The notes under the pieces were generated by a model, which did not search any database, was not told the DNA's origin, and saw only the letters and a list, made by a program, of their open reading frames with translations. A stretch of 32,916 bases of DNA from an uncultured Pirellula sp. Its GTDB lineage: Bacteria > Planctomycetota > Planctomycetia > Pirellulales > Pirellulaceae. The stretch lies in NCBI GenBank assembly GCA_903820735.1, contig CAIJIZ010000266.1:1-32916 (forward strand), read 5' to 3'. The position numbers and the translations under genes were made by a program. This document shows positions 27,015-30,662 of this stretch, in pieces (position 1 is the first letter of the stretch; each line of letters begins with the position of its first letter).

Positions 27015-28019
27015 ATGCAAGACGACGATTTGCAGTCCAACACAACACTTCCTAGCAGCATAGAACATCCAGCTAAAAAACCACTTGGCTGGATATTGCT
27101 TTTCGCAACTATCGGCTGGTTGCTCGTCGTTGCGGGCAACTTCGGCGCAACACCGAGCTTAGTCGCTTTTGCTTCAGGCTTTTACTTCGAACTCGTACTG
27201 GCTTGGTCTGCACTGATTGCACCGCAACAATGGAAAACACTGCTGTGCGCACTTCTGTATATCGCATGCTTGGCGGCTACCCAAGTATTTATGATCTATC
27301 TCACAAGCCAATCATCTCACACCCTGATCACGATTGATCTCGCTGATGTCCTGTACCCATTAGCAATCGGATGGTTCATGCTGAAACTCGCAAGCCTCGT
27401 AACGGGTATCGAGTTCTCCGACAAGTTGATCCAAGACAACAGCAACGTCACCCAAGAGAAACTTCCCCCGTTTTGGACCATATCACGATTGCTGTATGTC
27501 ATGGTATGCGTCGCGATGACTTGCCAATTTCTCGTTTTGCACGCTCGTTGGTACGCCAACCTGATGGGAGACCCAGCGACTTTCTCCAATGTCCTCGGGC
27601 CGATCGATCGATCCGGATTCGAAGCCACACAACTGAAACTCATTGCGCTGCGATTCATGGCCATCGCAAGCCAATTTGTTATTCCTGTAATGCTCGCATG
27701 TTGGTTAGCTTGTGGCACACCCAGACGCTGGCTACTTCTTCCAGGTAGCGTCGCGCTAGCTTGGATCATTGAGTTTATGGTGAACGAACAAGCCAATCGG
27801 ATCGCTAAAGCCGACCTGGAAATCCGCAAATACTGGGAATGGATCGACATTCGAACCATCTACGCCAATCTTCTAGGTGGACCGCTTGTGCTCATACTCC
27901 TCTCCATGCTCGGTTACATCCTCCTTGCCGCCCTCACCCCAACAATAAGCTACGCTTGGCGAAAAACGCCAACCTTCAACCTCTTTGGACTTCGAAGATT
28001 TTTTAGGATATTTTCCTGA
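27015..28019 (+). CDS. multi-pass membrane hypothetical protein
   Basis: 334 aa; several hydrophobic segments; AGGAG about 9 nt before the ATG. Confidence 0.75.
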   Translation: MQDDDLQSNTTLPSSIEHPAKKPLGWILLFATIGWLLVVAGNFGATPSLVAFASGFYFELVLAWSALIAPQQWKTLLCALLYIACLAATQVFMIYLTSQSSHTLITIDLADVLYPLAIGWFMLKLASLVTGIEFSDKLIQDNSNVTQEKLPPFWTISRLLYVMVCVAMTCQFLVLHARWYANLMGDPATFSNVLGPIDRSGFEATQLKLIALRFMAIASQFVIPVMLACWLACGTPRRWLLLPGSVALAWIIEFMVNEQANRIAKADLEIRKYWEWIDIRTIYANLLGGPLVLILLSMLGYILLAALTPTISYAWRKTPTFNLFGLRRFFRIFS

Positions 28020-28149: not shown

Positions 28150-29277
28150 ATGGCGGGATCATCCGGCAAAAACACTGCAGCAAAGAAAAAAGAAAAAGGG
28201 GCCCCAACCGAACCAGTCACAGGCTTGGAAGGTATCCTCAAACGCGAGCCAAGCCTTAAATCAACCCTTCAGCAAATCGAAAAAGCATTCGGCGAAGGCT
28301 CCATCATGCCTTTGGGTGGCGAAGCCCAATTGAAAATCGAAGGGATCAGCACCGGCTCCCTCTCCCTCGACTTGGCTCTCGGCGGTATCGGACTGCCTCG
28401 CGGTAGAATCATTGAAGTCTTCGGACCAGAATCCAGCGGTAAGACCACCATCGCCCTCCACGTGTGCGCCGAAGCACAAAAAGCTGGCGGCATCGCCGCA
28501 ATCATCGACGCCGAACACGCTTTCGACCCTAGCTGGGGAAAGAAACTTGGTGTCCAACTCGATACCCTGCTCGTCAGCCAACCTAGCAGCGGTGAAGAAG
28601 CGATGCAGATCACCGAAATGCTCGTGAAAAGCAACGCCGTCGACGTCATCGTCATCGACTCGGTCGCTGCCCTCGTCCCTCGCCAAGAACTCGAAGGCGA
28701 GATCGGTGATTCGCACGTCGGACTTCAAGCCCGTTTGATGAGCCAGTCCATGCGGAAACTTACCGGTGCAATCGCCAAAAGCAAAACCTCAGTGATCTTC
28801 ATTAACCAAATTCGCGAGAAAATCGGTGGCATGAGCTACGGTAGTCCTGAAACAACTCCCGGTGGTCGTGCCCTGAAATTCTACGCAAGCGTTCGGGTCG
28901 ATGTGCGACGTATCGGACAACTCAAAGATGGCGAAGAAGTCGTCGGGCAGCGAGTAAAGACGAAAATCGTCAAAAACAAAGTTGCCCCACCATTCCGCAT
29001 CGCTGAATTTGACATGATGCACACCAATGGAATCAGTTACGAAGGTGACTTGATCGATATGGGAATCGCCCACAAGATCATCAGCAAAAGCGGCGCGTGG
29101 ATCAAATACGGCGAAACCTACATTGGCCAAGGTAAAGAAAAAGCACGAAACTACCTCATGGAAAACAAAGAAGTAGCCCAGGAAATCCGCGACGCTATCG
29201 TTGCCGCAGGTGGTTATACAGGCCCCGAAGGCCCTGCGACCCCTGAAGAAGCCAGCGAAGCCGCCGCAGATTCTTGA
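28150..29277 (+). CDS. recA: recombinase RecA
   Basis: 375 aa; [104 protein letters not shown]. Confidence 0.98.
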
Positions 29278-29429: not shown

Positions 29430-30662
29430 ATGAGCAACCCTCCCTCCGCCGCTTTATCTCAAAGCCCGATTCGTCCTATTGGAATTCGAATCGCAACCTC
29501 AGCCAACACCGCAGCCCAACTTCACAATGCGTGTGCCCGATTCCTGAACGAGTTCGGGGTCTTGGATTTCGTTAGCTTCGAAACCATCGAGAATCCCCTT
29601 GCAGTAACCGAGAATCCCCGTGCAGCAACAGAGACTGCCCCGTCCGAGGCGGGTAACAGCACGATGGTATTGCAGGTGAGTCTGAGCGACCTAGCGTTCG
29701 CGCGGTGGACGCCGAACTTCAATACCGTCGATCTTTCGCAATTGCTCTCTAGTCATTTTGGGTCCGACGATCCGCAACTGCTTGAAAAAGAAACCCTTAT
29801 TGCAATGCTCGCTTGCCCAATCGGTTTCGAGTATCCAAGCTTTGAAGAGTGCGACTCCTCCTTTCGCATACGTGTAAACATTGCCAGAGCAGCGGCCAAA
29901 ACTTTCTTGTCATTCGATGCGTATGGTGCCGAGCGGCCGGAAGCGTACTGGCACTACGATGAAGAGAAAGGGTTCCTCATCAAACCCGGGATGCCTTTGA
30001 TCGATGCCTTACGACTCGCAACCCAACCAGGTGAAGACGGAACGGTTTACTCGTTTTCATGCTATCGGGCGACAGAATATGTAGTTGCATTGGGAATTGC
30101 CCAAGAAGCACAACGCGTCAATCCAATTTTAATGCAGCAACTGCAAGCTCAGGCGGAGCGGAGAGCCATTCGATCTGGGGAGTTCCACGAAGTCTTCATG
30201 AAAGAGTACGGTTCGCGTGAGAATCCACTTCCTGCAAAGTATTACGTCCCGGGTGACCGCGTATGGTTCAAAAACCCTGATCCCGAATCGGCCAACGCAC
30301 TGGGTTTTGAAGGCTCTTGGCTGTTTTATATCGGGAGCGGACTCTTTTCTGATTTTTGGAAAAGAGACAAGACTTTTACCCTGGAATTAAAGTGTCTTGA
30401 GATCTACCACTGGCGAGATTCGACCTATCAAGACCAGCAGGGGGTCCATTGGATGGACGAAAAGCGAGTCCAGCAGCACATGCGAGAAACGGAGAAATCC
30501 CAAGAGCAATATCAAGCTGTGATGGACAAAATGCAGCGCATGCAGGACGGGCGAGGCATATATGCAGAGGGAGGTTGCATCGATCCTTCGCGGGAATACA
30601 CCCGATGGGTTCGTCCTGGGACTTGCGATATACGTCTGAGCGACGCTTGTGATATCTCGTAG
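29430..30662 (+). CDS. protein-glutamine gamma-glutamyltransferase (Tgl-like transglutaminase), candidate
   Basis: 410 aa; FEYPSFEECDSSFRIRVNIARAAAKTF, YWHYDEEKGFLIKPGMPLIDALR, VYSFSCYRATEYVVALGI, DRVWFKNPDPES...GFEGSWLFYIG resemble, in order, the core of Bacillus Tgl. Confidence 0.6.
   Translation: MSNPPSAALSQSPIRPIGIRIATSANTAAQLHNACARFLNEFGVLDFVSFETIENPLAVTENPRAATETAPSEAGNSTMVLQVSLSDLAFARWTPNFNTVDLSQLLSSHFGSDDPQLLEKETLIAMLACPIGFEYPSFEECDSSFRIRVNIARAAAKTFLSFDAYGAERPEAYWHYDEEKGFLIKPGMPLIDALRLATQPGEDGTVYSFSCYRATEYVVALGIAQEAQRVNPILMQQLQAQAERRAIRSGEFHEVFMKEYGSRENPLPAKYYVPGDRVWFKNPDPESANALGFEGSWLFYIGSGLFSDFWKRDKTFTLELKCLEIYHWRDSTYQDQQGVHWMDEKRVQQHMRETEKSQEQYQAVMDKMQRMQDGRGIYAEGGCIDPSREYTRWVRPGTCDIRLSDACDIS

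Follow-up and report, generated by a model that had tools for sequence, protein, structure and literature searches.

The closest described relatives of the protein analyzed here are Tgl, the spore-coat transglutaminase of Bacillus subtilis (4p8i), and the corresponding Geobacillus protein (7c9j). The nucleophile of Tgl is Cys116 and its partner is Glu187, for which Glu115 can substitute (PMC6490927). The mutants C116A, E115A, and H200A are inactive and E187A retains about 60% of the activity; Arg185 and Asn188 are located at the tunnel's front entrance, on the Q-substrate side, and the R185A mutant is less active (PMC6490927). In the literature searched, we found no paper on a planctomycete Tgl. 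We analyzed a whole stretch of 32,916 nucleotides (hereafter, the window) from the genome of a Pirellula-like planctomycete, for which an earlier note had proposed a Tgl-like enzyme encoded next to recA in a presumably non-sporulating host.

The locus and its protein

The gene of the TGL-family (PF20085) protein lies at positions 29430..30662 (+) and encodes 410 amino acids plus the stop. The open reading frame is the one described in the earlier note: all the motifs quoted there occur in the order given, together with the Cys-containing tail, and the frame comes directly after recA (28150..29277, +; TIGR02012, 500 bits), whose stop codon is separated from the ATG of the TGL gene by 152 nt. 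The order upstream of the TGL gene is a DUF1015 protein, argC, a membrane protein, and recA, and the downstream neighbor is a convergent HtrA-type protease. The membrane protein between argC and recA (27015-28019, +) has no meaningful match in Pfam or NCBIfam. The assembly of this genome (5.9 Mb, 842 contigs, 94% complete) has one PF20085 gene. Within the limits of such completeness, SpoIVA is absent from the genome searched and LexA was not detected. The absence of SpoIVA in a Pirellula-like planctomycete agrees with a non-sporulating host, and, with relatives that are likewise planctomycete, the sporulation context expected of a spore-coat Tgl (NF002869) is missing.

By profile searches and structural modeling, the protein belongs to the Tgl family. 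The Pfam TGL profile (PF20085) matches residues 115-309 (E=5e-27), and its score of 95.2 bits is four times as high as the curated cut-off (23.7 bits). A single-query sequence search of the PDB retrieved 7c9j (E=4e-6) and 4p8i (E=5e-4) alone, and a profile of 14 relatives matched the two at 2.5e-14 and 7.5e-8. The AlphaFold model, built from a 24-sequence alignment (pLDDT 85, pTM 0.88), has 4p8i as its best Foldseek match (E 1.3e-7, probability 1.00, TM 0.59 over the target) and 7c9j as the second (E 7.5e-6), the next one being at E 0.53. Hence, the family and fold named in the earlier note, which had suggested comparing the protein with Tgl structures, were recovered by all three approaches, and Foldseek gave no different fold. 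Judging from these searches, the resemblance to Tgl is far beyond chance. The identity within the fold match is 17%, and the NCBIfam Tgl equivalog NF002869 gives 31.7 bits for a cut-off of 307; on sequence grounds, the protein is a distant cousin of Bacillus Tgl, not an equivalog. A Pfam match to APOBEC_N (E 0.02) is under the cut-off and was attributed to chance.

The extra N- and C-terminal regions that had been noted around the Tgl-like part can be seen in the AlphaFold model. The first is a small alpha/beta domain (29481..29708, +; residues about 18-93) with a strand-helix-strand-strand-helix topology, in which an insert at about residues 58-77 has low confidence and is particular to the window copy. 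This domain is kept in all complete copies of the genus, and the profile alignment covers the same region in L048, one of two full-length relatives found outside the genus (the other is L049). Its resemblances to NUS1 (E about 0.7 in a profile search) and to PII, NusG, and other small alpha/beta proteins (Foldseek E above 2) are at chance level. The Tgl-like catalytic domain, delimited by the Pfam match and by the Foldseek matches to 4p8i and 7c9j, follows at 29772..30347 (+; residues about 115-306). The C-terminal extension (30348..30659, +; residues about 307-410) has helices at 318-330, 344-356, and 358-370 and a short strand in the model, and its QD...GG...R motif is common to L048 and L049.

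In a hydropathy scan, which is a crude measure, the maximal 17-residue Kyte-Doolittle mean within the first 60 residues is 1.0 for the window protein, and 1.5 and 1.8 for L048 and L049, which have a strongly hydrophobic N-terminal stretch. The scan detected neither a signal peptide nor a membrane segment in the window protein. Since a strongly hydrophobic N-terminal stretch is lacking, a cytosolic site is likelier than the envelope, and the cross-linking of envelope proteins envisaged earlier is unlikely for this copy.

The active site and its candidate chemistry

The predicted nucleophile is Cys211 (codon at 30060..30062, +), which the alignments place at the position of Tgl Cys116. It is the sole residue invariant across all 24 aligned relatives and it starts a helix (residues 211-230 in the model), an N-terminal placement like that of papain-like folds. 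The proposal that the Cys of YSFSC corresponds to the Tgl nucleophile therefore holds. The same is not true of the acid. Using verified residue numbering for the 4p8i segments, the alignments place Ser210 at Glu115, Ser296 (30315..30317, +) at Glu187, Trp297 at Asn188, Trp279 at Tyr171, and Glu294 (30309..30311, +) at Arg185. An ungapped extension from Ser296 puts Phe309 at the position of His200, the residue at the back entrance of the tunnel, which holds if the stretch has no gap. The Glu of the FEG motif, taken earlier for the Tgl catalytic Glu, is thus two residues off, and neither glutamate that can partner the Cys in Tgl is present. By alignment, a plain Tgl-type Cys-Glu site in register is absent.

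Glu294 does not vary within the genus or in L048 and L049 (23-25% identity), and it is kept in most distant Pirellulales relatives. More precisely, the genus and L047, L048, L049, L067, L068, L069, and L070 have Glu there, and L051 has Gln. At the Glu187 position, Glu is found in 7c9j, L043, L044, L045, and L047; Ser is found in the genus and in L051, L067, and L070; L048 and L049 have Cys, and L068 and L069 have His. L047 has the two glutamates together (EGEN), which is what an intermediate between the arrangements would look like. The tree of the TGL domain did not resolve the deep branching order, on which the order of glutamate loss and gain depends. The simplest reading of the alignment is that the acid may have shifted two residues along one strand. 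Given the conservation of Glu294, Cys211 and Glu294 are the best candidate dyad.

We slightly favor the view that the protein is a cytosolic cysteine enzyme of acyl transfer in the Tgl family, with a papain fold (NlpC/P60-type), acting on glutamine side chains with Glu294 as the base. Cys211 would attack the side-chain amide of a protein glutamine and form an acyl-enzyme with release of ammonia, after which the acyl group would pass to a lysine amine (a cross-link), to a small amine, or to water (a deamidation). Glu294, which precedes the classical Glu187 position by two residues, is the likeliest base to activate Cys211, because both glutamates usable by Tgl are serines in the window protein. 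The location of position 185 by the Q-substrate opening of the Tgl tunnel, and the reduced activity of R185A, also speak for this reading. The activity need not be Tgl-like, as Ser210 and Phe309 replace residues whose E115A and H200A mutants are inactive, and a Gln deamidase activity would also be compatible with the data. The Gln found in L051 counts against the Cys211-Glu294 dyad, and the low equivalog score given above counts against the mechanism. More tentatively, one can picture a Pirellulales branch of Tgl in which the catalytic acid was shifted two residues along its strand, from Tgl position 187 to Tgl position 185, with L047 as an intermediate bearing both glutamates, L068 and L069 having a Cys-His-Asp papain triad, and the cytosolic proteins of the window type performing a protein modification unrelated to sporulation.

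Among the other explanations, the protein could be a true Tgl-type cross-linker, joining proteins of a cytosolic or storage assembly by gamma-glutamyl-lysine bonds, with Glu294 and Ser296 as a tolerated variation of the dyad. The Tgl family and fold and the conserved Cys fit this, and the Tgl acid is movable, as E187A keeps about 60% of the activity thanks to Glu115 (PMC6490927). However, both of these acids are Ser and His200 is Phe in the window protein, there is neither SpoIVA nor a coat context, and no conserved neighbor gene resembles a substrate; we regard this explanation as unlikely. We give somewhat less credit to a cysteine amidohydrolase, deamidase, or peptidase of the same fold, which would use water instead of lysine as the acceptor. 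Papain-like relatives do both chemistries (PMC10318531), and the wider family is not uniformly Tgl-like, since L068 and L069 have His at 187 and Asp near 200, like a Cys-His-Asp site, but in the clade of the window the residue at 187 is a Ser and not a His. Finally, a catalytically dead member retained for binding or scaffolding is improbable: three positions important in Tgl are replaced and other systems offer examples of inactive transglutaminase domains (PMC3482391), but a dead enzyme would not need the full conservation of YSFSCYRATEY in the genus nor an invariant Cys211. GFEGSW is almost unchanged in the same copies. The gene is under purifying selection, with a pairwise dN/dS of 0.08-0.22 (six pairs with unsaturated dS), and hence it works.

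Distribution and the recA neighborhood

The protein has an orthologue in 14 of the 27 genomes of the genus, a count that leaves out G023, whose weak match (it would be the fifteenth) is to another protein, of the RHS type. Beyond the genus, 397 sampled genomes of the order yielded the two full-length relatives L048 and L049, both from the same other family, as well as a few distant TGL domains. At the level of the phylum, PF20085 has matches in 6 of 294 genomes, G000 included. Searches of phages, plasmids, and viral contigs gave no match, and no PADLOC model matched the protein, which led us to discard a phage, plasmid, or viral origin and a role in anti-phage defense.

The position next to recA, given in the earlier note, is true at the window and does not extend to the family. 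The copies adjacent to recA are found in seven genomes and make up one clade of the TGL tree, where the window copy is basal, and they also belong to a single clade of the recA tree. In other lineages, the copies adjoin unrelated housekeeping genes, such as those of seryl-tRNA synthetase, short-chain dehydrogenases, an acyltransferase, or a PAC2 protein. Because of this, the adjacency is best described, from the two trees and the gene orders, as a single local historical event in one subclade. One genome of that recA clade (G004) has no TGL match, an absence that is uncertain because the contig stops about 450 nt past the aligned recA. The gap between recA and the TGL gene varies from 5 to 300 nt. 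It is just 5 nt, from stop to ATG, in four related genomes (L031, L032, L033, and L034), which suggests that the two genes may be co-transcribed in this subclade. A family-wide link to recA or the SOS response was rejected given the lack of LexA in the genome, the variable gap, and the location of half of the genus copies elsewhere; in the subclade with the 5-nt gap, the two may be linked.

Relatives and known systems

The TGL family is already known, and the new part is the altered combination of residues: the literature searched, in which a single open paper names PF20085, has no description of the loss of Glu115, Glu187, and His200 together with a conserved Glu two residues upstream. In non-sporulating bacteria, a conserved branch that is under purifying selection and has neither Tgl glutamate would illustrate how an active site of this fold can be rebuilt. 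It would also hint that proteins are cross-linked or deamidated in planctomycete cells, of which the same literature gave no description.

In Planctomycetota, the TGL family also occurs as C-terminal domains of RHS-repeat and eCIS-type proteins. L051 (8345-17998, -), in the same genus (G023), exceeds 3200 aa and has RHS repeats and a dockerin domain, with a divergent TGL-like domain at its C-terminal end (QGSN motif, below the Pfam cut-off), a polymorphic-toxin-like architecture. L067 (1578-6029, -) is RHS-type by Pfam and has a C-terminal TGL domain. L043 (9314-10312, +) has an RHS-core-like motif, read by eye, and a C-terminal TGL domain with the Tgl-type GEN and His200 motifs. In L047 (3080-4330, +), an eCIS core domain (PF13699) is fused to a C-terminal TGL domain with glutamates at positions 185 and 187; it is possibly an injected TGL-family effector, distinct from EAT14. 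Another family of Pirellulales (L068:3004-4065, +; L069:124-975, -) has signal-peptide-like N-termini; in these proteins His occupies the Glu187 position and an Asp lies close to that of His200, a canonical papain-like Cys-His-Asp set within the TGL family.

The window protein has in common with the Tgl of B. subtilis and Geobacillus the fold, the order of the catalytic domain, the nucleophilic Cys (Cys116/Cys211), and the NIxxAAKT, GDxxxFKNP, and YxG strand motifs. It differs from them by five replacements (E115 to S210, R185 to E294, E187 to S296, N188 to W297, and H200 to F309), by the added N-terminal domain and C-terminal extension, and by its planctomycete host devoid of SpoIVA. The other Pirellulales proteins L048, L049, L068, and L069 share with it a TGL domain with an E-G-x motif, and the first two also have its N-terminal domain and C-terminal motif. 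However, all four bear a hydrophobic, signal-peptide-like N-terminus, and Cys (L048 and L049) or His (L068 and L069) replaces Ser at 187. The RHS-repeat (L043, L051, and L067) and eCIS-core (L047) proteins have a homologous catalytic domain with the invariant Cys, but they are large or multi-domain and toxin-like, and L043 and L047 keep the GEN motif. EAT14, a toxin associated with eCIS that has a transglutaminase-like domain, is similar in the transglutaminase-like chemistry proposed for it (PMC11297309) and differs in its family (Transglut_prok, PF09017), which has a Cys-His-Asp site.
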